Shown piece by piece: positions 40,576 to 56,030 of a DNA stretch of 64,000 nucleotides. The notes beneath the pieces are model-generated. The model searched no databases. It was not told the origin of the DNA and saw only the letters and a program-made list of their open reading frames with translations. Position 1 is the first letter of the stretch. Each line of letters starts with the position of its first letter. This DNA comes from Planotetraspora silvatica (GTDB taxonomy: Bacteria; Actinomycetota; Actinomycetes; Streptosporangiales; Streptosporangiaceae). The position numbers were made by a program, and so were the translations under genes. Location of the stretch: contig NZ_BOOQ01000019.1 of assembly GCF_016863315.1 (NCBI RefSeq), positions 124,001 through 188,000 on the forward strand, in the 5' to 3' direction.

Positions 40576-40616
40576 TGAGCGGGTGCGCGCGATCGTCCGG
40601 ATTCTGGTTGATGTCC

Positions 40617-43600
40617 ATGGCCGTGTGCGGCGATATTTGCGGGGTGAGCGGTGAACCGCAGACTGCCCAGTCGGGGGTGATGCGTGCCGGGGCAGGCCAG
40701 CTGACCCGGACGGTGTGGACGAGCGCGCGCCGATGGACTCCGCCGCTGTTGCTCGCGGTGCTCTCGGCCGGAGCGCTCGCACCGCTACTGACCTCGGGCG
40801 CGGGTCTTGCGACGGCGGGGGTCGGCGCCGTCGCCGCAGTCGGCGGGAACGTGCTGACCGATGTGGTCAAGGCGGGTGTCGCGCGCCTGATGGGGACTGG
40901 AGGGAAGCCGTCGGCTCAGGACGTCCAGGCTGAGTTGGTGCGGCGGATCCAGGAGACGCTGGAGGCCGGCGGGGAGCACGCGAAGCAGTTGCGTGGGGAC
41001 ATCGCGCGGCTCATGCGGGAGCACGAGCTGGTCGGCGCGGCGATCGAGGCAGCCGTGCAGACCGGTGACCGGGATCTGCAGGCGGCGCTGGCCGCGGGTC
41101 TGGCCGGGCTGAGCGAAGACTTCGCCGAGTTCGCCTTCGTCCTTTCCGATGTCGGGGCGAACCTGCGGTCGATCCGGGAAGGCGTCGACCACAACCGCGC
41201 CGAGCTGCAACTGGCGGTGGGGTTGCAGTACCGGCAGGCGACGGATACCCGGCTGCTCCTGGACCAGGTGTCGCTGATCGAGCGGCGGACCCGCCCCGGT
41301 GGCTCTCCGGGCGGCGACGTGCCGCGGTGGGAGGCCCGGAGCCCCTACCAGGGGCTGGCTCCTTATTACGAGTCGGATGCCGAGGTGTTCGCCGGGCGTG
41401 AGGTCGCCACGGCCGAGCTGGTCAGCACGCTGTCACAACGGCTCACCAGCCCGGGACCGCTGATGGTGACCGGCGCCTCCGGGGCCGGGAAGTCCTCTCT
41501 GCTGCGCGCCGGGCTGGTCCCGGCCATCGCTCGGGGCGACCTGTCCGAAGCCGCCCGGCAGTGGCCGCGGCATGTCATCGACCTGCCTCCCCGCTCCCCC
41601 CTGTCTCGTCTGGCGATGGTGCTGGCGGGCATGGCCGGACTGGATGCCCCCTCCGTCCTCGGTGCCCTCGCCAGAGAGCCCCGGCATGCCCCGTTGCTGG
41701 TCCGGCAGGCCCTGGACGAAGACGCCCGGCTCCGCGCCCTCTCCGTGAATGTGGCGAGCAGATCCAGGCTGGTCCTGGTGGTCGACCAGTTCGAGGAGAT
41801 CTTCGCCGTCGACGACGAGGACGCCGCCGCCGAACGCGTCGCCTTCATCACGGCGCTGGACGCCATGGCGACGATTCCGGCCGGACCGGACGGCGCCCCT
41901 GCGGCACTGGTGCTGATCGCGGTGCGCGGAGACTACATCGACCGCTGCGCCCGACACCCGCAACTGGCCACGGCGTTACGGGACGGCCCATTCGTGCTCG
42001 GGCCGATGTCCGAGACCGAACTGCGGATCGCGATCGCCCGGCCCGCCGCCTCCGCGGCCCTGGAGATCGAGCCCGGCCTGGTGGACACCCTCCTCGGGGA
42101 ACTCCGATCACCGGCCGGAGGGTACGACCCGGGCGCCCTCCCGCTGCTCTCCCAGGCGATGCTGACCGTCTGGGAGCACCGTGAGGACGACCGTCTCACC
42201 AGCCGCGGGTACGCCCTGACCGGCGGCGTCACCCGCGCGGTCGCCACAAGCGCGGAGACCGCCTACGGCAGCCTCGGCCCCCGCGGGCAGGAACTGACCC
42301 GTCAGCTGTTCCAGCAGTTGACGATGGTCTCGCACGACGGCCAACTCGCTCGCCGTACGGTCGCCCGGACCGACGTGGACGCCGCCTGTCCCGAGGAGGA
42401 CCGCGCCTGCCTGGAAGAGGTGCTGGAGCTCTTCGCCCGGCGGCGGCTCATCGTCGTCGACACCGCCTCCGTGCAGATCGCCCATGACACACTGCTGCGG
42501 AACTGGCCGCGGTTGCGCGACTGGCTGGACACGGACCTCACCGGGCACGCCCTGCGCAGCCAGCTCGTCGACGACGCCGACGAATGGGACCGGAACGGGC
42601 GGGCCGCTTCGTATCTGTACCGCGGAGAACGCCTGGCCGCGATCCTGCACGCCGAAGGACGCCGGCAGGCCGACCCGCTCTCCCGGCCTCCTCCCACCGG
42701 CATCCCCAAGGCGTTCCTCGACGCCGGCGTGCGTGCGGACAACCGCGGCAGACGTCAGCGTCGACTCGCCCTCACCACGCTTTCCACACTGCTCGCCGCA
42801 GCCGTCGTCCTCGCGGGCGTCGCCTTCGTCCAGGGGAGAACCGCTCGGGAGCAGCGTCAGGCGGCACAGGAGCAGCAGCGCGTCGCCACCGCCCGGCTCC
42901 TCATCTCCAAAGCCGAGGCGGCCCGCGACACCGACCCCCGACTCGCACTGCAACTCGGCATCTCCGCTGAAAGAGTTCACTCCGATCCCCAGACGCGGGC
43001 CAGCCTGGTGGGCACCCTCACCACCACCCAGTACGCGGGAACCCTCACCGGATACGAAGACACCGTCGAGTCGGTGAAGTTCTCCCCCAACGGCCGCATC
43101 CTGGCCACCACCAGCCGCATCACGACGACGAAACCGGTCACGACCTGCGGCGGCGACGGAACCGGCTGTGCCGTCGCCGGGCCGGCCTGCCGCGCCGGAG
43201 AGACTGCGTGCCCGGCCCCCACTCCCGAGCCCACGACGTCCACCAGCCTGGACGGCGCGATCATCCTGTGGGACATGTCCGCACCGGGCCGGCCAAGCCG
43301 GCTCGGCGCGCCCCTGATCATCGACAACACCTTCACCGCTTTGATCGCCTTCTCGCCCGACGGCCGTCTCCTGGCCACGAATGACGACGGCGGCAGGACC
43401 GCGACCCTGTGGGACATCTCCGATCCGGCGAAGCCGCTCCGGCGCGGCTCTTCGGCGGACGACACCTCCAGTGACATCCGATCCATGGCCTTCTCCCCGG
43501 ACGGACGCACGTTGGCGACAGGCCGCGAGAACCACCAGGTCGACCTGTGGGACATGTCCGATCCATCGCGGATCACCCGGCGGGGCGCGGCGTTGACCGG

Positions 43601-45197
43601 GCAGACCAAGACGGTGGACTCGGTGGCGTTCTCGCCGGACGGCCGGACCCTCGCGGCCGGCAGCGACGATTCGGTGACGTTCTGGGGCGTCGCCGACCCG
43701 TCACGGCCCACCAAGCTGGGCTCGCCCCTCACCGCTCGTTCGCCAGTGGCGTTCTCACCCGACGGCCGCCTTCTGTCGACGCACCTCAAGGACCCCGAGT
43801 CGAAGAACCAGAACGCGTTCGTCCTCTGGGATCTGACCCGGGCCACGCCCACCCGGATCGGGACACCCATGAGCGGCAACAACAGTTCGATGGCGTTCTC
43901 CCCCGACTCGAAAACGGCGGTCACCGCCGGTGCGGAGGGCACCGCGGCTCTCTGGAACGTCAGCGACCCCGCCCGGCCCGTCCGATCACAATTCCCGCTC
44001 ACCGGCCACACCGACTCCATCCAGGCGGTCACCGTCTCACCCGATGGGCGGACTCTGATCACCGGCGGTCAGGACCGGACCGCAATCCTGTGGAACCTCG
44101 TCGATGTCGGACGGCCCGCCCGACGCGGATCGACCCTGACCGGAGCGGACTCACTGGCATTCCGCCAGGACAGCCGCGCCCTAGCCTCCGGCAGCGCGAA
44201 CGGCACCGTCTCCCTGCGGGACCTGACCGATCCGGCCCGGCCGGTCACCTTCGACGCCACCCTGCCGGGAACGGCCACCAAACTGTCGCCCGACGGACGT
44301 TCCCTCGCCGTTCTCGGGGCTGACGGCGCCGTCACCGTGTGGGACATCTCCAGCCCTGGCCATCCCGTCAAACGTGGACCGCCGCTGCCGGGCAGCGGAA
44401 CTCCGGCCATGTTCTCCCCTGACGGCCGGATGCTGATCACCGGCGACGAGAAGGCATCGATGCTCTGGGATCTGACCGATCCCGCACGGCCAGTCCAGCG
44501 CGAGAAGGACCTGCCTGCCGTCATCGTGCTGGTGGCGGCTTTCCGGCCGGACAGCCGAAGCTTGGCCATCAGCAATATCTACGACTTCGACGGCAAAGTG
44601 ACCCTGTGGGACGTCTCCGATCCGGCCAGACCCGCCGCACAGCCCGTGCCGATCCTGGCCGGCGATGCGTCGAACGTGACGTCGGTGTCGTTCTCTCCCG
44701 ACGGCCGCATCCTGGTCACCGGGCGCGCGGACGGCACGATGATCCTCTGGGACGTCTCCCATCAGGGGCAATACGTCAGGATCGGGCAACCTCTGATCGG
44801 GCCGAGCGATCCCAACGGGAACATCGCGTCGCTGAGCAGCAGGGTGTCGGTCGTGGCCCTGGCGTTCTCCGCCGATGGACGGACCCTGGCCACGACCAAC
44901 GTCGCGGGCTCGCTCACTCTCTGGGACCTCACCGACGTCTCCGCCCCGCACAAGCTGAGCCCGCCGATCCTCCTTCCCGACAGGTACGCGTTCGACCTGA
45001 AGTTCGCGCCCGACGGGAAGACCCTGGCCACCATCACCCTCGAAAGCAAGGTGGCCCTGTGGGATCTGTCCGGCATCAACGATCTCCTGGCCAACGCGGT
45101 GCAACGAGCCTGCTCCATCACCGGCCGGGGCCTCGACCGGACGGAATGGGCCCGCTACATCCCAGGCCTCCCGTACGAGGAGACGTGCGGGAAGTAG
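40617..45197 (+). CDS. nSTAND1-type NTPase with fourteen WD40 repeats, 1526 aa
   Basis: Giant signalling ATPase. The N-terminus has a hydrophobic Ala/Gly/Leu segment (residues about 42-78) and a helical region. The STAND NTPase core follows with Walker A GASGAGKSSLL (Lys292) and Walker B LVLVVDQFEEIF (Asp390). After winged-helix/helical parts comes a transmembrane segment (about 716-738, LSTLLAAAVVLAGVAFV). Fourteen WD40 units follow (tryptophan-aspartate blades such as ILWDM, TLWDIS, DLWDMS), enough for two seven-bladed propellers. The tail is GRGLDRTEWARYIPGLPY. Such proteins sense a trigger through the propeller and act in conflict/defence or signalling. No adjacent effector was found. ATG 40611 and 40680 are alternative starts; none has a clear ribosome site. 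Confidence 0.9.
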   Translation: MAVCGDICGVSGEPQTAQSGVMRAGAGQLTRTVWTSARRWTPPLLLAVLSAGALAPLLTSGAGLATAGVGAVAAVGGNVLTDVVKAGVARLMGTGGKPSAQDVQAELVRRIQETLEAGGEHAKQLRGDIARLMREHELVGAAIEAAVQTGDRDLQAALAAGLAGLSEDFAEFAFVLSDVGANLRSIREGVDHNRAELQLAVGLQYRQATDTRLLLDQVSLIERRTRPGGSPGGDVPRWEARSPYQGLAPYYESDAEVFAGREVATAELVSTLSQRLTSPGPLMVTGASGAGKSSLLRAGLVPAIARGDLSEAARQWPRHVIDLPPRSPLSRLAMVLAGMAGLDAPSVLGALAREPRHAPLLVRQALDEDARLRALSVNVASRSRLVLVVDQFEEIFAVDDEDAAAERVAFITALDAMATIPAGPDGAPAALVLIAVRGDYIDRCARHPQLATALRDGPFVLGPMSETELRIAIARPAASAALEIEPGLVDTLLGELRSPAGGYDPGALPLLSQAMLTVWEHREDDRLTSRGYALTGGVTRAVATSAETAYGSLGPRGQELTRQLFQQLTMVSHDGQLARRTVARTDVDAACPEEDRACLEEVLELFARRRLIVVDTASVQIAHDTLLRNWPRLRDWLDTDLTGHALRSQLVDDADEWDRNGRAASYLYRGERLAAILHAEGRRQADPLSRPPPTGIPKAFLDAGVRADNRGRRQRRLALTTLSTLLAAAVVLAGVAFVQGRTAREQRQAAQEQQRVATARLLISKAEAARDTDPRLALQLGISAERVHSDPQTRASLVGTLTTTQYAGTLTGYEDTVESVKFSPNGRILATTSRITTTKPVTTCGGDGTGCAVAGPACRAGETACPAPTPEPTTSTSLDGAIILWDMSAPGRPSRLGAPLIIDNTFTALIAFSPDGRLLATNDDGGRTATLWDISDPAKPLRRGSSADDTSSDIRSMAFSPDGRTLATGRENHQVDLWDMSDPSRITRRGAALTGQTKTVDSVAFSPDGRTLAAGSDDSVTFWGVADPSRPTKLGSPLTARSPVAFSPDGRLLSTHLKDPESKNQNAFVLWDLTRATPTRIGTPMSGNNSSMAFSPDSKTAVTAGAEGTAALWNVSDPARPVRSQFPLTGHTDSIQAVTVSPDGRTLITGGQDRTAILWNLVDVGRPARRGSTLTGADSLAFRQDSRALASGSANGTVSLRDLTDPARPVTFDATLPGTATKLSPDGRSLAVLGADGAVTVWDISSPGHPVKRGPPLPGSGTPAMFSPDGRMLITGDEKASMLWDLTDPARPVQREKDLPAVIVLVAAFRPDSRSLAISNIYDFDGKVTLWDVSDPARPAAQPVPILAGDASNVTSVSFSPDGRILVTGRADGTMILWDVSHQGQYVRIGQPLIGPSDPNGNIASLSSRVSVVALAFSADGRTLATTNVAGSLTLWDLTDVSAPHKLSPPILLPDRYAFDLKFAPDGKTLATITLESKVALWDLSGINDLLANAVQRACSITGRGLDRTEWARYIPGLPYEETCGK

Positions 45198-48100: not shown

Positions 48101-48189
48101 AGGCGCGCATGCCGGGGCGAGACCTCCGTGCTGTAGAAATGAAGCTCGGCGAACCGAGGTTCGGCATGGCGCCAGAACCCCACGCCATC

Positions 48190-48318: not shown

Positions 48319-49665
48319 ATGGCTTCTTCTCTCGGCACCGACGACTACGCGATATCCCGAGTCCCCGCCCGCGCCCGATACTCCTGGGTGTCGGTCGCGG
48401 TCCAGCGGTTCGGTCAGATCTCCGCCCTCAGTCAGTTCCTCCTCGGCGCGACCCTCGGATTCGGGATGAGCTTCTGGAGCGCCTTCTGGGCGATCACCCT
48501 CGGCGCGGTCATCCTCGAACTGGTGGCCATCGCCTTGGGCGTCATCGGCATGCGGGAGGGGCTGACGACCTCCATGCTCGCCCGGTGGTGCGGTTTCGGC
48601 CAAGCCGGGTCCGCGCTGATCGGCCTGGCCATCGGGATCAGCCTGGTCGGCTGGTTCGGCATCCAGTCCGGGGTGTCGGCCGAGGGCCTGCACGCACTGC
48701 TTCCGGGGCTGCCCGTGTGGGCGTGGTCCCTGTTGTTCGGGCTCGCGGTGACGGCCATCGTCGTCAAGGGCTTCCATTCGATGGCGTGGACCGCCTACCT
48801 CACCGTGCCCGCGTTCGTCCTGCTGGTCGCCTGGTCGGTCGGGAGCGAACTTTCCCAGCGCTCGCTCTCCGAACTGGCCGCCGCCGCCCCCGCCGGCCCC
48901 TCGTTGTCCCTGCTGCAGGGCACCACGCTGGTCGCCGGCGGGTTCATCGTGGGCGCGGTGATCACTCCGGACATGACCCGGTTCAACCGGTCGGTCGGCG
49001 ACGTGGTCAAGCAGACACTGCTCGGGATCACCCTCGGCGAGTACGTGATCGGCCTGATCGGCGTCCTGCTGGCGCACGCGATCAAGTCGGCGGACATCAT
49101 CACGATCATCACGTCCACCGTCGGCTGGGTCGGCGTGCTGGTCATCGTCGTCGGAACACTGAAGATCAACGACTGGAACCTGTACTCCTCCGGGCTCGGC
49201 CTGGTGAACTTCGTCGGCACGGTCTTCGGCCGGCAGGTCAACCGCGCGGTCGTGACCCTGCTCATCGGCCTGGTCGGCAGCGTGCTGGCCGCGGCGGGCA
49301 TCCTCAACAACTTCACCGACTTCCTCACGGTGCTGGGCGTGGCGTTCCCCCCGATCGCCGGAATCATGATCGCCGAGTACTTCGTGGTGCGGACCTGGCG
49401 GCGCGACCTCGACAGCGGCAAGGCGGCGGACGGGGTCCCGCCCGAGGCGCCCCGCTGGGTGCCCGTGACCCTCGTGATCTGGCTCGTCGCGGGCCTGGTC
49501 GGGAAGTTCGTGACCTGGGGCCTGCCCAGCATCAACTCACTGGTCGTCGCGTTCGTGCTGTACGCCGTCGTGGGCCGGCTCGGCCTGATTCGGGGATACG
49601 GCATCGCGCGCACCGAGACGGCGGACGGCCGGACGGCCGCCGCGTCCGCCCCCTCGGCCGCCTGA
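48319..49665 (+). CDS. NCS1-family permease (cytosine/purine/hydantoin type, CodB-like), 448 aa
   Basis: Twelve predicted transmembrane helices and the NCS1 pattern. Helix 1 begins near ISALSQFLLGATLGFGMSF, with the QFLLGATLGFG motif typical of CodB/PucI-like proteins. An acidic ligand position GAVITPDMTRFNRS follows in helix 6. It takes up nucleobases, allantoin or hydantoins by cation symport. The start is ATG 48319 with GGAGG five bases before the spacer; an ATG three bases earlier is too close to it. It leads the six-gene operon, so the likely substrate is the hydantoin degraded by the next genes. Confidence 0.93.
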   Translation: MASSLGTDDYAISRVPARARYSWVSVAVQRFGQISALSQFLLGATLGFGMSFWSAFWAITLGAVILELVAIALGVIGMREGLTTSMLARWCGFGQAGSALIGLAIGISLVGWFGIQSGVSAEGLHALLPGLPVWAWSLLFGLAVTAIVVKGFHSMAWTAYLTVPAFVLLVAWSVGSELSQRSLSELAAAAPAGPSLSLLQGTTLVAGGFIVGAVITPDMTRFNRSVGDVVKQTLLGITLGEYVIGLIGVLLAHAIKSADIITIITSTVGWVGVLVIVVGTLKINDWNLYSSGLGLVNFVGTVFGRQVNRAVVTLLIGLVGSVLAAAGILNNFTDFLTVLGVAFPPIAGIMIAEYFVVRTWRRDLDSGKAADGVPPEAPRWVPVTLVIWLVAGLVGKFVTWGLPSINSLVVAFVLYAVVGRLGLIRGYGIARTETADGRTAAASAPSAA

Positions 49666-49676
49666 AAGGACCTGAA

Positions 49677-51233
49677 ATGCGGATCGGAATCGACGTCGGC
49701 GGGACCAACACCGACGCCGTGCTCATGGACGGGCAGAGCGTCCTGGCCGCGGTCAAGACCGCGACCACGCGGGACGTGACCAGCGGCATCAACACCGCGC
49801 TCGCCGAGCTGAAGCGCCAGCGGGCCTTCGACCCGCTGGCGGTGAACGCGGTGATGATCGGCACGACGCACTTCATCAACGCGCTGGTCGAGGCCGACCG
49901 GCTGGCGCCGACCGCCGCCGTGCGGCTCGGCCTGCCCGCCACCGCGTCGTTGCCGCCCATGGTCGACTGGCCCGAGCGGCTCGTGGACGCCATCGCGGGC
50001 CGGGCCTACCTCTGCCACGGAGGGCATGAGTTCGACGGGCGTCACATCGCCGAACTGCGTGAGGACGAGATCCTGCGGGTTGCGGAGGAACTGCACCGGC
50101 ACGAGATCCGCAGCGTGGCCATCTCGAGCGTGTTCTCCCCGGTCAACGCCGAGTTCGAGCAACGCGCCGCCGACATCCTCACCGGGCAGCTGCCCGCGAT
50201 CGCCGTCTCGCTGTCATCGGAGATCGGCCGGATGGGGTTGCTGGAACGGGAGAACGCCACCATCATCAACGCCTCGCTGCGCGAGCTCGCCACCCAGATC
50301 GTCGACGGGCTCTCCCAGTCCCTCGAGGGCGCGGGCATCAGCGCACCGCTGTATCTCAGTCAGAACGACGGCACGTTGATGGACGTCGACTTCGCGCGTC
50401 GCTACCCGGTCGCCACCTTCGCCTCGGGTCCGACCAACTCGATGCGCGGCGCCGCTTTCCTGTCCGGCGTGGAGTCGTGCGCCGTCGTCGACGTGGGCGG
50501 CACGACGAGCGACATCGGCGTGCTGCAGCACGGCTTCCCGCGGGAGGCCACCACCGAGGTGAGCGTCGCCGGGATCCGCACCAACTTCCGGATGCCCGAT
50601 GTCCTCAGCCTGGGCATCGGCGGGGGCAGCCGGATCCGCGGCGACGGCACGGTGACGGTGGGGCCGGACTCGGTCGGCTACCGCCTCGCCGATGAGGCGC
50701 TGGTGTTCGGCGGGGCGACGCTCACCGCCACCGACGTCGCGGTGGCGGCGGGTCGCGCCGTGATCGGCGACCCCGGCCTCGTGAAGGAACTGGACCGGTC
50801 GCTGGTGCGGGCGGCACTGGACCGGATCGCCCGCGAGATCGGCGACGCCATCGAGCGCATCCGCACCTCCCCCGAGCCGCTTCCCGTGGTCGCGGTCGGC
50901 GGCGGGTCGATCCTGCTCCCGGACGAGATCGGCGACTCCGGGCCGGTGCACCGGCCCGAGCACTTCGCCGTCGCCAACGCCATCGGCGCCGCCATCGCCC
51001 AGATCGGCGGAGAGGTCGACCGGATCTTCCCGGTGGAACCCGGCCAACGGCAGGCCGTGCTGGACGACGCCAAACAGGAGGCGGTCGACAAGGCGATCGC
51101 CTCGGGAGCCAAGCCGGGCAGCGTCCGGGTCGTCGAAGTCGACGAGGTGCCCCTGGCGTACCTGCCGGGAAACGCCACCCGGATCCGCGTCAAGGCGGTC
51201 GGCGACCTGCAACTGGAGGCCGGTCGTGGCTGA
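49677..51233 (+). CDS. Hydantoinase/oxoprolinase family protein (HyuA-like), 518 aa
   Basis: Actin/Hsp70-fold enzyme. The N-terminal part carries the phosphate loop GIDVGGTNTDAVLMDG, and the C-terminal hydantoinase_A part contains SCAVVDVGGTTSDIGVLQ (second phosphate loop) and LGIGGGSRIRGDG. Members cleave hydantoins or 5-oxoproline with ATP. A ribosome site AAGGA stands seven bases upstream of ATG 49677. It is shorter than the large oxoprolinases because the HyuB-like subunit is missing; such short forms usually pair with DUF917 proteins, three of which follow directly. The end overlaps the next gene by 8 bp. Confidence 0.92.
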   Translation: MRIGIDVGGTNTDAVLMDGQSVLAAVKTATTRDVTSGINTALAELKRQRAFDPLAVNAVMIGTTHFINALVEADRLAPTAAVRLGLPATASLPPMVDWPERLVDAIAGRAYLCHGGHEFDGRHIAELREDEILRVAEELHRHEIRSVAISSVFSPVNAEFEQRAADILTGQLPAIAVSLSSEIGRMGLLERENATIINASLRELATQIVDGLSQSLEGAGISAPLYLSQNDGTLMDVDFARRYPVATFASGPTNSMRGAAFLSGVESCAVVDVGGTTSDIGVLQHGFPREATTEVSVAGIRTNFRMPDVLSLGIGGGSRIRGDGTVTVGPDSVGYRLADEALVFGGATLTATDVAVAAGRAVIGDPGLVKELDRSLVRAALDRIAREIGDAIERIRTSPEPLPVVAVGGGSILLPDEIGDSGPVHRPEHFAVANAIGAAIAQIGGEVDRIFPVEPGQRQAVLDDAKQEAVDKAIASGAKPGSVRVVEVDEVPLAYLPGNATRIRVKAVGDLQLEAGRG

Positions 51234-52314
51234 GCGGCTCATCACCGGTCCGGACCTGGACGACCTCGCGGTCGGCGCGGCCATTCTCGGCACCGGCGGC
51301 GGCGGGGACCCGCACATCGGCCGGCTGCTCGCGCACGCGGCCGTCCGCGCCGACGGTCCGGCCCGGCTCATCCCCCTGGAGAACGTCCCGGACGACGCGG
51401 TCGCCGTGGTGGTCGCCATGATGGGCGCACCCACGGTGATGCTGGAGAAGGTGCCCTCGACCGAACAGGCGAAGCTCGCCGTCCAGGCCCTCGCCTCCTA
51501 CCTGGGCGAATCCCCCACTCACCTGGTGTGCGCGGAGGCCGGCGGCGTCAACGCCCTCGTGCCGGTCGTCGCCGCCGCTCAGCTGGGGCTCCCCCTGATC
51601 GACGCCGACGGGATGGGACGGGCCTTCCCCGAGCTGCAGATGGTGATGCCCACGTTGTACGGCCTCGGCGCCACCCCGATGTCGATCGCCGACGAGAAGG
51701 GCAACCAGGGGATCTTCGACACCGTGGACAACCACTGGGCGGAACGGCTCGCCCGCTCCGCCACGATCGACATGGGTTGCTCCGCGATGATCAGCCTGTT
51801 CCCGATGACCGGGGCGCAGGCCCGCGAGGCCCTCGTCCCGGGCACCCTGTCCCTCTGCGGCGAACTGGGCCGTCTGGTGCGCGAGGCACGTGCCTCGCAC
51901 CAGGACCCGGTCGCGGCCGTCGTCGACCGGCTGGGCGGGGCCGAGCTGTTCAGCGGCAAGGTCGTGGACGTCAGCCGGCGGACCGAGGGCGGATTCGCGC
52001 GCGGCGAGGCGACGCTGGAGGGGCTGGACGGCCGGTCCGGCGAGCGGTTCCTGCTGCGATTCCAGAACGAGCACCTCGTCGCCGTCAGGGACGGCGTCGT
52101 GGTGGCCACCGTCCCCGACCTGATCTGCGTGCTCGACGCCGAGGTGGGCACCGCCGTCACCACCGAGACGCTCCGGTACGGCCAGCGCGTGCGGGTCATC
52201 GCGGCGCCGTGCGACCCTCGATGGCACACCCCCGAAGGGCTGGAGCTCGTCGGGCCCCGGTACTTCGGCTACGACCACGACACCGTCCGCGTCGGATCCG
52301 GAGCGCTCACGTGA
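51226..52314 (+). CDS. DUF917 (S-methyl thiohydantoin desulfurase-like) protein 1, 362 aa
   Basis: DUF917/S-Me-THD family. The N-terminal Gly-rich loop AILGTGGGGDPHIGRLL is followed by MGAPTVMLEK, the central DADGMGRAFPELQM and the C-terminal FARGEATLEGL and VPDLICVLDA blocks. The family includes a characterised S-methyl thiohydantoin desulfurase, and most members sit beside hydantoinase genes. The GTG start lies inside the hydantoinase gene (8-bp overlap), so translation is coupled. It is the closest of the three to the second copy in motif order and spacing. It likely handles a heteroatom-substituted hydantoin intermediate. Confidence 0.9.
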   Translation: MAERLITGPDLDDLAVGAAILGTGGGGDPHIGRLLAHAAVRADGPARLIPLENVPDDAVAVVVAMMGAPTVMLEKVPSTEQAKLAVQALASYLGESPTHLVCAEAGGVNALVPVVAAAQLGLPLIDADGMGRAFPELQMVMPTLYGLGATPMSIADEKGNQGIFDTVDNHWAERLARSATIDMGCSAMISLFPMTGAQAREALVPGTLSLCGELGRLVREARASHQDPVAAVVDRLGGAELFSGKVVDVSRRTEGGFARGEATLEGLDGRSGERFLLRFQNEHLVAVRDGVVVATVPDLICVLDAEVGTAVTTETLRYGQRVRVIAAPCDPRWHTPEGLELVGPRYFGYDHDTVRVGSGALT

Positions 52315-53414
52315 GCTACACCCTCGAGATTCACGACCTCGCCGACCTGGCCCGAGGGGCGGCGTTGCTCGGCACCGGCGGCGGAGGTGATCCGTACATC
52401 GGGAGGCTGCTCGTGGAGCAGGCGCTGCGCGACGGCCCGGGGACGATCACCGTGCTCGACCCCGCCGAACTCGGCGACGACGACGTGGTCATCCCGACGG
52501 CGCAGATGGGCGCCCCGACGGTGATGGTGGAGAAGATCCCCCGGGGCGACGAGGCCGTGGCGGCGCTGCGGGCGCTGGAAGGACACCTGGGACGGCGGGC
52601 CGACGCGACCATGCCGATCGAGTGCGGCGGGATCAACTCGATGATCCCGTTACTGGTCGCCGCCCGCACCGGCCTGCCCGTCGTGGACGCGGACGGGATG
52701 GGCCGCGCCTTTCCCGAACTGCAGATGGAGACCTTCTCCGTGTACGGCGTGCCGGGTTCGCCGCTCGCGATCGGCGGCGAGAACGGCGAGACCGTCGTCA
52801 TCGACACCGGCGCCGACAACAAGCGCCTCGAATGGCTCGCCCGCGGGATCGCCATCAGGCTCGGCGGCGTCGCGCACATCGCCGAATACGCGATGAGCGG
52901 CGCGGACGTCAAGCGGACGGCGGTCCCGAACACGCTCAGCCTCGGACTGCGGATCGGGCGCGCCCTGCGCACCGCGCGCGAGGAACACCGCGACCCGGTC
53001 GCGGCGCTCGCCGACACGATGTCCGGCACTCTCTATGACAAGGTCCGGGTGCTGTTCCGCGGCAAGGTCGTGGACGTCGAGCGGCGTACGGTCGCCGGGT
53101 TCGCCCGCGGGAGCGCCACGCTCGCCGCCTTCGAAGGCGACGGCAGGCTCGAACTGGTCTTCCAGAACGAGAACCTGGTGGCGCGGGTGGACGGCGAGAT
53201 CCGGTGCGTGGTCCCCGATCTGATCTGCGTGCTCGAGGCCGACTCCGGCGAGCCGATCACCACCGAGGGGCTCCGGTACGGCCAGCGGGCCGTCGTCGTG
53301 GGGATCAGCACCCCGGACCTGATGCGCAGCCCGGAGGCCCTCGCGGTGTTCGGACCTCACGCGTTCGATCTCGACGTGGAGTTCCAGCCGGTGGAGGATC
53401 TCGTGTCACTCTGA
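52311..53414 (+). CDS. DUF917 (S-methyl thiohydantoin desulfurase-like) protein 2, 367 aa
   Basis: Second paralogue, with the same blocks: ALLGTGGGGDPYIGRLL, MGAPTVMVEK, DADGMGRAFPELQM, FARGSATLAAF and VPDLICVLEA. The start GTG overlaps the previous stop by four bases (GTGA). High motif conservation with copy 1 suggests a duplication, but scattered differences show it is old. The two could form a heteromeric enzyme or process related substrates. A third, more diverged copy starts five bases after this stop. No signal peptide; cytosolic. Confidence 0.9.
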   Translation: MSYTLEIHDLADLARGAALLGTGGGGDPYIGRLLVEQALRDGPGTITVLDPAELGDDDVVIPTAQMGAPTVMVEKIPRGDEAVAALRALEGHLGRRADATMPIECGGINSMIPLLVAARTGLPVVDADGMGRAFPELQMETFSVYGVPGSPLAIGGENGETVVIDTGADNKRLEWLARGIAIRLGGVAHIAEYAMSGADVKRTAVPNTLSLGLRIGRALRTAREEHRDPVAALADTMSGTLYDKVRVLFRGKVVDVERRTVAGFARGSATLAAFEGDGRLELVFQNENLVARVDGEIRCVVPDLICVLEADSGEPITTEGLRYGQRAVVVGISTPDLMRSPEALAVFGPHAFDLDVEFQPVEDLVSL

Positions 53415-53418
53415 GTGC

Positions 53419-54486
53419 ATGCCAATCCGCTACCTCGGTGAGCCGGACATCGACCACCTCGCCCGGGGCACCACACTGCTCGGCTCGGGCGGCGGCGGGC
53501 AGACGGACACGGCCGCCCGCCTGCTCAGGCGGAGCCTGGCGGGCGGCCGGATCGAGCTGCTGACCAGCGACGACGTCCCCGGCGGCCACGTCGTCCCGGT
53601 GGGGATCGTCGGGGCGGTGTCGGCGTTCACGGAGAGGCTGCCGTCCGGTGGAGAGTGGGCGCCCGTGCTCGCGACGATCATGGACCGGACGGGGATCAGC
53701 CCCGCCGGGCTGATCGCGATCGAGGCCGGCGGGGTGAACGGCATCGTCGTGTTCGTCGCCGCGGTCGAGCTCGGCCTCCCGGTGATCGACGCGGATCTGC
53801 AGGGCCGGGCGCTGCCGCGGCTCGACCAGATGTCCGTGGCGGCGCTCGGCGAGCCGCTCACGCCCCTGGCCATCGGCGACGCCGGCGGCCGGCTGCTCAT
53901 GCTGGACTCGCTGTCTCCCCAGGCCGCCGAGCGGATCGTCAGGTCCGCGCTCACCGAATTCGGCGGCTGGGCGGCGATCGCACTGCGCCCGCTGCCCGTG
54001 GAGCTGCTGGACCGCCTGACCATCCTCGGCTCGTTCAGCCGCGCCCTGCACCTCGGGGCCCGTCATGCGGCCTGGACCCTGAGCGCCGATCCACGCGAGG
54101 CGGCCGCGTCCCTCGGGGCTCGGATCCTGGTCACCGGCCGTGTCATCGAGGTCGTCCGGCACCGGGCGGCGGCGGGGTTCGGCCGCGGATCCGTGATCAT
54201 ACGAGCCGGCCGTGACGGGACCCTCGTTCGGCTGGAGATGGAGAACGAGTACCTGCTCGCTCTCATCGACGGCGAACCCGTCGCGTCCACCCCCGACATC
54301 CTGTGCGTCCTCGACAGGACCAGCGGCCTGCCCATCTCCTGCGACACCGTGCGCGGCGGCGCGGAGGTCGTCGCGCTGCACCTTCCCGGCCCGCCGTTCT
54401 GGTGGCGGCCGGAAGCCGTGGACATCGTGGCGCCCCGCGCCTTCGGGCTGGGCATCGACCCGATCCCTCTACGGGGGGCGACATGA
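53419..54486 (+). CDS. DUF917 protein 3, diverged, 355 aa
   Basis: Third paralogue, clearly drifted. The Gly loop is TLLGSGGGGQTDTAARLL, and the MGAPTVM block is replaced by VGAVSAFTERL. The conserved DADGMGRAFPELQ becomes DADLQGRALPRLDQ, losing the Gly-Met and Phe. The C-terminal TPDILCVLDRTSGLP block is preserved. Loss of otherwise invariant positions suggests a different substrate or a structural role in a hetero-oligomer with copies 1 and 2. The ATG follows the previous stop by four bases and its own stop overlaps the PucR start (ATGA). Confidence 0.85.
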   Translation: MPIRYLGEPDIDHLARGTTLLGSGGGGQTDTAARLLRRSLAGGRIELLTSDDVPGGHVVPVGIVGAVSAFTERLPSGGEWAPVLATIMDRTGISPAGLIAIEAGGVNGIVVFVAAVELGLPVIDADLQGRALPRLDQMSVAALGEPLTPLAIGDAGGRLLMLDSLSPQAAERIVRSALTEFGGWAAIALRPLPVELLDRLTILGSFSRALHLGARHAAWTLSADPREAAASLGARILVTGRVIEVVRHRAAAGFGRGSVIIRAGRDGTLVRLEMENEYLLALIDGEPVASTPDILCVLDRTSGLPISCDTVRGGAEVVALHLPGPPFWWRPEAVDIVAPRAFGLGIDPIPLRGAT

Positions 54487-56030
54487 CGGACGTTCCGCCG
54501 ACCCTGCGCGAGCTGATCGGCCATCCGCACCTCGCCGCCACGCCACTGTCCGGCGACGACGACCTCGACCGGCGCGTCACCGGGATCACCCTGATCGACC
54601 CGGCCGACACCGGCCTCGTCCAGGCGGGCGAGATCGCGGTGTGCCCGGTGATCCCCGCCGGTTACCTGAGCAGCTGGCGCCTGGACGCCACGATCCGCCG
54701 CCTGTACGACCAGCGGGCCGCCGCCCTCGCCGTCCCTCTCCCGGGACCCGGCGGCGAGACACTCCTGGACGGCAGCCGCCGCCTCGCCCGGCATCTGCAC
54801 CTGCCGATCCTGGGCATCAGCGGGGCACCGCTGCGCTGGGCGGGGACCGCCGCCGTGTTCGTGCACTCCCCCGCCGTGGACGCGGCCGATCATCTGTGCC
54901 GCGCCCACCGCGCGCTGACTCCCCGCCTGCTCAATCCCCAGGACGTGGCCCGCGCGCTCACCGGAATCCTGGACCGGCCGGTGGCGGTCCTCGGCCCCGA
55001 CGGCACACCGATCACCGTGTCCTTCGAGCTGCCGTCCGACTTCGATCCGCACGCCCCGGTGGCGCAGATCCTCACCGCGGACGGCCACACGACCGTCGCC
55101 GTACCCGTGCCGGGGACGCCGAGCGGGACCGCCGACCTGTGGATGGCGGCCGCTCTCGGGCCCGCGCCGGCCGCCTGGGCGCGCGCCGTCCGCGACGTCC
55201 TCCAGTTCGCGACACTCGCCGTCCAGCGGTGGCAGGCCACCCGCCGGGTCGTCCTGGAGCGTGACGCCCGGCTTCGCGCCGGCCTGTTCGGCGATCTCCT
55301 CGAGGGCAGGCTGGACAGCGGAGGCACCGCGCACCAGCGTGCGGCCGAAATGGGCTGGCGGCTGGACGGCTGGCACGTGGCCTTCCACATCGCGGCTCTG
55401 GGACAGGTCGACCTCCTGGGGCACACCGACGCCGTCGTGGCCGCCATCGCGGCGGAACAGATCGACGTCACCGTGGTGGAACGCGGTGACGGCTGGTCCG
55501 CGTGGACGACCAGCAGGACCGAACCGGACGAGGACACCAGCCGTGACCTGCTCGCCTCCCTTCAGCGGATCCGCCGGCGGCTGGCCGGCCGGTTCGACTG
55601 CGCGATCGGGGTGGGACGCGGCCATCCCGACACCGGCGGGCTGACCCGGAGCCTCGCCGAGGCGTGGGACGCGGCCAGGCTCGCCCGCGGACGGCCGCAG
55701 ACCGGCCGCCTGGTGCACATCGACCGTCTCGGGCTGGCCCAGTTGCTGGTCGCCTGGGCGAGCACCGAGACCTTCGCCCCCACCGCGACCCGGCTGCTCG
55801 CCCCTCTGGAGTCACAGCCCGGCGAGCTCGTCGCAACGCTGTCCACCTATCTGGACGCCGGAGGATCGGCGGCCGACACCGCGGCGATACTCGGCGTGCA
55901 CCGCAACACCGTCGCGGCGCGGCTCCACCGGATCGAGGAACTGCTCACCGTCGACCTGAACAACCCGGACGACCGCCTCGCCCTCCACCTGGCCTGCCGG
56001 GTCACCCTCGACCGGAACACCGGCTACTGA
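54483..56030 (+). CDS. PucR-family transcriptional regulator, 515 aa
   Basis: Standard PucR architecture: N-terminal purine-catabolism ligand domain (residues about 5-125, [20 protein letters not shown]), a central GGDEF-like segment (about 270-400) and a C-terminal HTH_30 (about 450-505, [20 protein letters not shown]). PucR proteins activate purine, allantoin or hydantoin catabolism on binding a ligand. Its position as the last gene of the permease/hydantoinase/DUF917 operon, translationally coupled by ATGA, makes it the pathway-specific regulator. The upstream palindrome at 48190 is the likeliest binding site. Its end overlaps the convergent DUF418 gene by seven bases. Confidence 0.93.

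Follow-up and report, generated by a model that had tools for sequence, protein, structure and literature searches.

Why should three consecutive DUF917 genes stand behind a single short hydantoinase gene, and do all three belong to the same enzyme? The question is raised by a 64,000-nucleotide stretch of the Planotetraspora silvatica genome (NZ_BOOQ01000019.1, positions 124,001 to 188,000; hereafter the window), in which six plus-strand genes at 48328-56030 are arranged in the order NCS1-HyuA-D1-D2-D3-PucR, D1 to D3 being the DUF917 genes. An earlier note on this DNA had taken the three for tandem paralogues and suggested a heteromeric enzyme or a pathway with several related steps. Our analysis points to an operon in two parts, in which HyuA-D1-D2 is probably the enzyme and D3-PucR a regulatory module for which a DUF917 protein was co-opted. 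The six genes are as follows.

48328..49665, + strand: NCS1-type permease (cytosine/purine/allantoin transporter family; Pfam PF02133, 79.5 bits)
49677..51233, + strand: short HyuA (hydantoinase/oxoprolinase A, 518 aa; Pfam PF05378 and PF01968)
51226..52314, + strand: D1, DUF917 gene 1, of a HyuA-linked clade (GTG start, 362 aa; from Pfam, tree and neighbours)
52311..53414, + strand: D2, DUF917 gene 2, of a second clade of HyuA operons (GTG start, 367 aa; from Pfam and tree)
53419..54486, + strand: D3, DUF917 gene 3, of the PucR-linked clade, a likely regulatory partner (ATG start, 355 aa; from Pfam, tree, neighbours and model)
54483..56030, + strand: PucR-family transcription regulator, in ATGA overlap with D3 (Pfam HTH_30 and GGDEF_2)

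That three DUF917 genes follow a short HyuA at 51226-54486, as the earlier note had it, agrees with the open reading frames (ORFs), the junctions and the Pfam matches. The overlap is 8 bp at the HyuA-D1 junction and 4 bp at both D1-D2 and D3-PucR; a 4-bp gap separates D2 from D3. The S-Me-THD domains (PF06032 and PF20906) span the whole protein in D1 (190 and 251 bits), D2 (204 and 221 bits) and D3 (135 and 151 bits), both far above the 27-bit cut-off. NCBIfam now holds two named desulfurase models for DUF917 relatives, and D1, D2 and D3 match both without reaching either cut-off: NF058532 (S-methyl thiohydantoin desulfurase, cut-off 450) at 110.8, 96.2 and 86.4 bits, and NF058529 (thiohydantoin desulfurase, cut-off 440) at 75.5, 69.6 and 77.6 bits. 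The three are therefore relatives of these desulfurases, sharing both Pfam domains, at scores that do not reach enzyme identity, and D3 differs further from them at P69, F134 and R321 (D1 numbering). The claim that the third gene deviates in two motif blocks is borne out: the first block reads DADLQGRALPRLDQ in D3 and DADGMGRAFPELQ in D1 and D2, and the second VGAVSAF in D3 as against MGAPTVM in D1 and D2. Yet the first block of D3 still has its Pro, its Arg and both Asp, four residues that are invariant across a 50-member family alignment. The window HyuA qualifies as a short HyuA by its Hydant_A_N and Hydantoinase_A domains (125.5 and 120 bits), carries both ATPase phosphate motifs (DVGGTNTD and DVGGTTSD), and scores far under the NCBIfam cut-offs. 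The permease is likewise under every NCBIfam cut-off, and its start codon is uncertain (the ORF opens at 48109). The regulator matches HTH_30 at 81.6 bits (cut-off 27) and GGDEF_2 at 56.3 bits; its N-terminal domain, PF07905, scores 30.0 bits, short of the 33.5 cut-off.

A maximum-likelihood tree was built to place the three genes. After removal of DUF917 pieces shorter than 280 aa and of identical sequences (322 kept, 298 unique), sequences of more than 72% identity were merged into 95 representatives. D1, D2 and D3 each belong to a deep clade of their own, that of D3 with support of 100/99, and constraining the window's three genes to group together worsens the log-likelihood by 448 units (approximately unbiased test, p-AU 9.8e-63), which rules out a recent or local tandem duplication. 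The tree thus places D3 as an old, separate branch of DUF917, not a local tandem copy; the phylogeny that the earlier note had recommended goes against the idea of one tandem family. The specialisation of the third gene is real. The D1 and D2 clades are HyuA-linked. In the DUF917-HyuA-DUF917-DUF917 arrangement of Haloferax mediterranei, one DUF917 falls within the D2 clade and another is placed beside the D1 clade, indicating that such pairs with HyuA are old. An unrelated triplication is present in an actinomycete locus (L029, 6557-9959), in the order DUF917-DUF917-DUF917-HyuA, its three similar genes lying outside the D1, D2 and D3 clades.

What marks the D3 clade is the gene that follows. 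PucR lies directly 3' on the same strand of 87 of the 91 unique D3-clade genes and of none of the 207 other unique DUF917 genes, two of which stand too near the end of their stretch for the 3' gene to be judged; in five of the 207 the next recognised 3' gene is a PucR on the opposite strand. Among the four D3-clade exceptions, two have a PucR domain 408 and 422 bp away, one meets a contig end, and one (locus L081) is taken up below. A class census gives 11/11 for the D3 clade against 0/56 for the others, and on the tree the trait 'PucR directly 3'' requires two changes, counted with one contig-end locus (L107) omitted.

The adjacency holds also where the pair lies outside the run of enzyme genes. 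Named genomes were searched with a 13-protein D3 alignment, and the best 80 of the 123 relatives found were used, all Actinomycetota by record title; one D3 is cut by a contig end (L123), so that 79 D3 genes were counted. PucR is directly 3' of 75 of these, and another DUF917 gene lies at most 300 bp upstream in only 46. The pair is divergent from NCS1-HyuA-D1 in L103, convergent with HyuA-D1 in L085 and L096, and about 15.6 kb from D2 in L165. On a Streptomycetaceae plasmid (L166, 7919-9450) genes for OsmC and a pyridoxal phosphate (PLP)-dependent cysteine synthase stand between D1 and D3-PucR, a hint of released sulfide. The genes found between D2 and D3 vary: trypsin-like and D-glutamate cyclase genes (L052), glycosyl hydrolase 1 (L070), a short-chain dehydrogenase (L095), an abhydrolase with a peptidase S9 (L069), and DUF1838 (L097). 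Being so varied, these inserts were dropped as pointers to the substrate; they do show that D2 and D3 come apart more readily than D3 and PucR. No fusion of DUF917 with PucR or HyuA was found, no ORF in loci L025-L173 and the window part carrying two of the four domains.

Stop/start overlaps divide the operon similarly. Counting 4-bp overlaps, frame-checked and with pairs more than 400 bp apart excluded, we found them in D1-D2 (60/65), D3-PucR (75/89) and HyuA-D1 (38/80) pairs, and in neither D2-D3 (0/45) nor D1-D3 (0/5) pairs, a pattern that sets HyuA-D1-D2 and D3-PucR apart as two units. Covariation of evolutionary rates was estimated from branch lengths on a fixed tree for 36 six-gene loci, as partial correlations after removing the other four genes; L026 and L032, in which the nearest permease is low-scoring and on the other strand, were omitted from this final test, and the gene pairs in it are not independent of one another. 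In each of the six settings D3-PucR ranked first among the 15 pairs (rho 0.47-0.51), in agreement with a first run on 38 loci (0.46). HyuA-D3 covariation is about zero (-0.04 to 0.07). HyuA-D1 and HyuA-PucR come next over all branches (0.34-0.38), and for NCS1-D1 and NCS1-D2 the values are 0.33-0.45 when only end branches are taken.

The HyuA genes of related modules provide a further line of evidence. Both ATPase phosphate motifs are absent from 8 of 150 HyuA reading frames, one of which (L155_5159) overlaps another HyuA piece and was set aside. The remaining seven (L044, L136, L154, L157, L159, L160 and L161, with L154 and L157 from one genus) all adjoin a DUF917 gene of the D3 clade or its sister clade and have PucR close by, on the other strand in L044; in the six that were scanned, Pfam finds the HyuA domains partly or not at all. 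Beside D1 or D2, 98 of 100 HyuA are intact, and the other two, in short frames, lack the N-terminal motif. We then took as loci the best 30 matches to four early-branching D3 proteins in 338 genomes of the family; one (L174) is the gene of L161 again, which leaves 29 further loci. In all 30 (29 beyond L161) the second motif is absent from the HyuA adjoining DUF917, the first being unjudgeable where short loci cut HyuA, and PucR is 3' in 27, the other three ending at contig edges. These 30 loci are not on the tree. Several sister-clade members still have HyuA, DUF917 and PucR near one another. Both L044 and L136 have, adjoining the motif-less HyuA-DUF917 pair and PucR, a further HyuA-DUF917 pair that is intact; this arrangement resembles an enzyme beside its converted twin.

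From this pattern we advance, more tentatively than the two-part reading of the operon, the possibility that a whole HyuA-DUF917 pair turned into a PucR sensor in Actinomycetota, persisting in some lineages as a HyuA without ATPase motifs together with DUF917 and PucR, and in the window's lineage as DUF917 alone, a near-obligate sensing subunit of PucR. On the simplest account, PucR would first have regulated a HyuA-DUF917 operon; a second copy of the enzyme would then have been taken over as its partner, the HyuA of that copy losing its ATPase function and later being lost altogether in the lineage leading to D3. On the two-part reading itself, D3 descends from a HyuA-linked DUF917 that parted from HyuA, paired with PucR and came to be translated with it. 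In the present operon D3 probably binds a substrate or product of the pathway in an inherited pocket and reports to PucR, and the D3-PucR module would control the true enzyme, HyuA-D1-D2. The NCS1 permease would supply that enzyme, whose most likely activity is ATP-dependent ring opening or desulfurisation of a hydantoin-, thiohydantoin- or lactam-like compound, with HyuA providing the ATPase and DUF917 occupying the place expected for HyuB. We infer the contact between D3 and PucR, ligand binding or sensing by D3 and the direction of regulation, as we do the substrate and the reaction of the enzyme.

The assignment of D3 to a regulatory module must be tempered by several observations that weigh against it. 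In L081, D3 is followed by an aminotransferase gene, and PucR is absent from the 17 kb of that locus. An apparently intact HyuA precedes the D3-type gene in L038 and L121, and in L041 and L147 a HyuA with a broken second motif occurs outside the D3 and sister clades. Where HyuA directly precedes a D3-clade gene, the two overlap by 4 bp in four of five pairs, as in an enzyme pair. HyuA-PucR (rho 0.34-0.39) and D1-D3 (0.27-0.41) covary too, and rate covariation together with neighbourhood shows functional ties or shared pressure, not contact. Loss of the sensor domain specifically from D3-linked regulators was considered as a candidate and dropped: at E 6e-8, chosen near the PF07905 cut-off, neither the D3-linked PucRs (0/27) nor the others (0/13) match this domain, most of the sequences having been trimmed to the domain found. 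Lastly, D3 retains near-invariant acidic, Asn and Arg residues, and so may, judged by its residues, still be a catalyst.

This last point comes from a residue comparison made on an earlier set of 86 representatives, 48 outside the wider D3 clade against 31 core D3. Of 50 columns that are at least 90% conserved outside the wider D3 clade, 24 are retained at 97% or more in the core D3, among them (D1 numbering) D126, D128, R132, P135, E74, E104, N109, E173, R177 and E282. Complete catalytic death of D3 is accordingly not supported. Nearly always lost are P69 (retained in 2/31), F134 (0/31; Leu or Val) and R321 (0/31; Glu or Asp in 27), a change of conserved positions that would suit a binding protein. 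The D3 model is confident (AlphaFold2 mean predicted local distance difference test score 94.9, against 95.8 for D1) and has the same fold as 2o3i, the solved DUF917 structure from Chromobacterium violaceum (CV_3147), at only 24% identity over 335 aligned residues (Foldseek E 1.9e-21; VIA Z 37.6); fold relatives beyond DUF917 were not used, the next-best Z being only 4.6. The 2o3i molecule is titled 'Hypothetical protein' and therefore gives no mechanism. In four Planotetraspora genomes the ratio of nonsynonymous to synonymous substitution rates (dN/dS) is 0.11-0.22 for D3, 0.11-0.20 for PucR, 0.10-0.15 for D1, 0.08-0.13 for HyuA and 0.07-0.11 for D2, which puts D3 near PucR and slightly higher than the three enzyme genes. 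By sequence and predicted structure, then, D3 is an intact DUF917 protein under selection, with a changed set of conserved positions.

The alternative that survives best makes D3 a third DUF917 hydrolase, active and serving a related step or substrate, which would owe its place before PucR to conserved gene order only. The retained Asp, Asp, Arg, Glu and Asn positions, the intact predicted fold, the purifying selection, the intact HyuA before D3 in L038 and L121, and the HyuA-D3 overlaps all fit it. But gene order alone fails to explain why D3 and PucR stay adjacent away from the enzyme genes, and the absence of a 3' PucR from all 207 other DUF917 genes and the motif-less HyuA in relatives of the module are left unexplained, so that we consider this alternative unlikely, though worth keeping in view.

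The single heteromeric enzyme of HyuA, D1, D2 and D3, which was the view of the earlier note, has in its favour the one operon with its tiny gaps and the D1-D3 covariation. Part of that proposal stands, since a HyuA-D1-D2 heteromer is plausible from the D1-D2 overlaps and the HyuA-D1 rate covariation over all branches. As a third subunit D3 does not hold up: clade, neighbour, overlap and covariation tie it to PucR, its covariation with HyuA is about zero and it never shares a 4-bp overlap with D2. Moreover, D3-PucR is found away from HyuA-D1-D2, and among the 79 D3 loci, seven lack D1, nine lack D2 and three lack both in the stretch covered, some of the contigs being short. A heteromer of all four proteins is thus improbable. 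Much the same doubt attaches to the idea that D3 catalyses the formation or destruction of the PucR inducer, a feedback requiring no contact between the two; it fits the PucR linkage and the retained active-site-like residues, but does not by itself explain the 75/89 D3-PucR overlaps, nor the loss of ATPase motifs from the partner HyuA of related modules. That D3 is a decaying duplicate, as its longer branches might imply (tree length about 11.6, against 5.5 for D1 and 6.4 for D2), is hardly credible given its dN/dS, which largely refutes it, its confident complete fold and its retention in many genera.

The NCS1-HyuA-D1-D2-D3-PucR operon is recurrent across Actinomycetota, with D3 present in many genera. 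Among the 80 named loci (the best 80 of 123 relatives), 60 have D1, D2 and D3 together, nine have D1 and D3, seven D2 and D3, and three D3 alone, some of the partial sets being on short contigs. The closest named genome is Planotetraspora mira, with a D3 98% identical, in a search that may omit records of the window's own genome. The earlier note had allowed that the arrangement would be ordinary if most related hydantoinase operons carried the same three genes; this is so in part, in that the set recurs in many related operons, and the arrangement is accordingly a conserved actinomycete operon and not a local oddity. Its statement that one DUF917 usually accompanies a HyuA is fair as a general rule: 34 of the 52 census loci have just one DUF917, belonging to none of the D1, D2 and D3 clades, with HyuA directly adjacent in 31 of these (two census loci were left without a gene after removal of short or identical DUF917 rows). 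In an evenly drawn class sample, any DUF917 occurs in 42 of 394 genomes. Two family-level searches, in which presence only was counted, found matches in 136/341 and 136/338 genomes.

Enzyme paralogues that have become transcription co-regulators are known, such as Gal3 of yeast and DhaQ, with DhaS, of Lactococcus. The likeness to D3 lies in an enzyme relative serving as the sensor or co-activator of a regulator; the protein families and the regulators are other ones. On the enzyme side, the window HyuA resembles the HyuA/HyuB-type ATP-dependent hydrolases (caprolactamase, acetophenone carboxylase and 5-oxoprolinase) in having the N and A domains together with both phosphate motifs. It differs in being short (518 aa) and in having DUF917 in the place of HyuB: no HyuB (PF02538) was found on the window's contig (C19), the genome's two HyuB matches being on contigs C9 and C15. 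A fourth DUF917 gene of this genome, accompanied by a HyuA of its own, also lies on C9 (about 328137-341095), where a full-length HyuB follows about 11 kb further on.

DUF917 proteins are little studied and were called experimentally uncharacterised in a 2024 paper (PMC11055893). In the open-licence literature searched we found no description of the DUF917-PucR pair, no joint occurrence of 'PucR family' and 'hydantoin', and no 'Thiohydantoin desulfurase'; in the portions seen of PMC11055893 and PMC8305020, PucR occurs only in the reference lists. If a deep DUF917 branch is a regulatory partner instead of an enzyme, naming every copy a desulfurase or hydantoinase misleads, and a testable sensing partner would be at hand for the PucR regulators of these operons. 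Should a whole pair have been converted, the window operon would hold the functioning enzyme next to its sensor twin, and an enzyme with a possible sensor twin in one operon offers a direct test of the change from enzyme to sensor.

Neighbouring genes in relatives include an Asp/Glu/hydantoin racemase beside HyuA (L085 and L096), HyuB with an ATP-binding cassette (ABC) transporter (L160) and molybdenum hydroxylase-type genes (L040), which are consistent with catabolism of nitrogen rings or hydantoins. Some individual loci depart from the usual plan. Sediminivirga luteola (L121, 3939-13290) has the order NCS1-D2-HyuA-D1-HyuA-D3-PucR, with ATPase motifs in both HyuA. In Pseudonocardia sp. CNS-004 (L106, 3426-4972) an otherwise complete six-gene operon has HyuA split into two frames and PucR in three pieces, through either gene decay or sequencing errors. 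In Haloferax mediterranei (L167, 4157-9748) and Rhizobium leguminosarum (L169, 3158-9711) there are HyuA operons with several DUF917 genes, the final one of which precedes a gene for an Lrp or LuxR-type regulator. Upstream of the operon in the window itself, at 40608-45197, lies a 1529-aa ORF in which an ATP-binding motif (GASGAGKSS) and many WD40-like repeats were recognised by eye.

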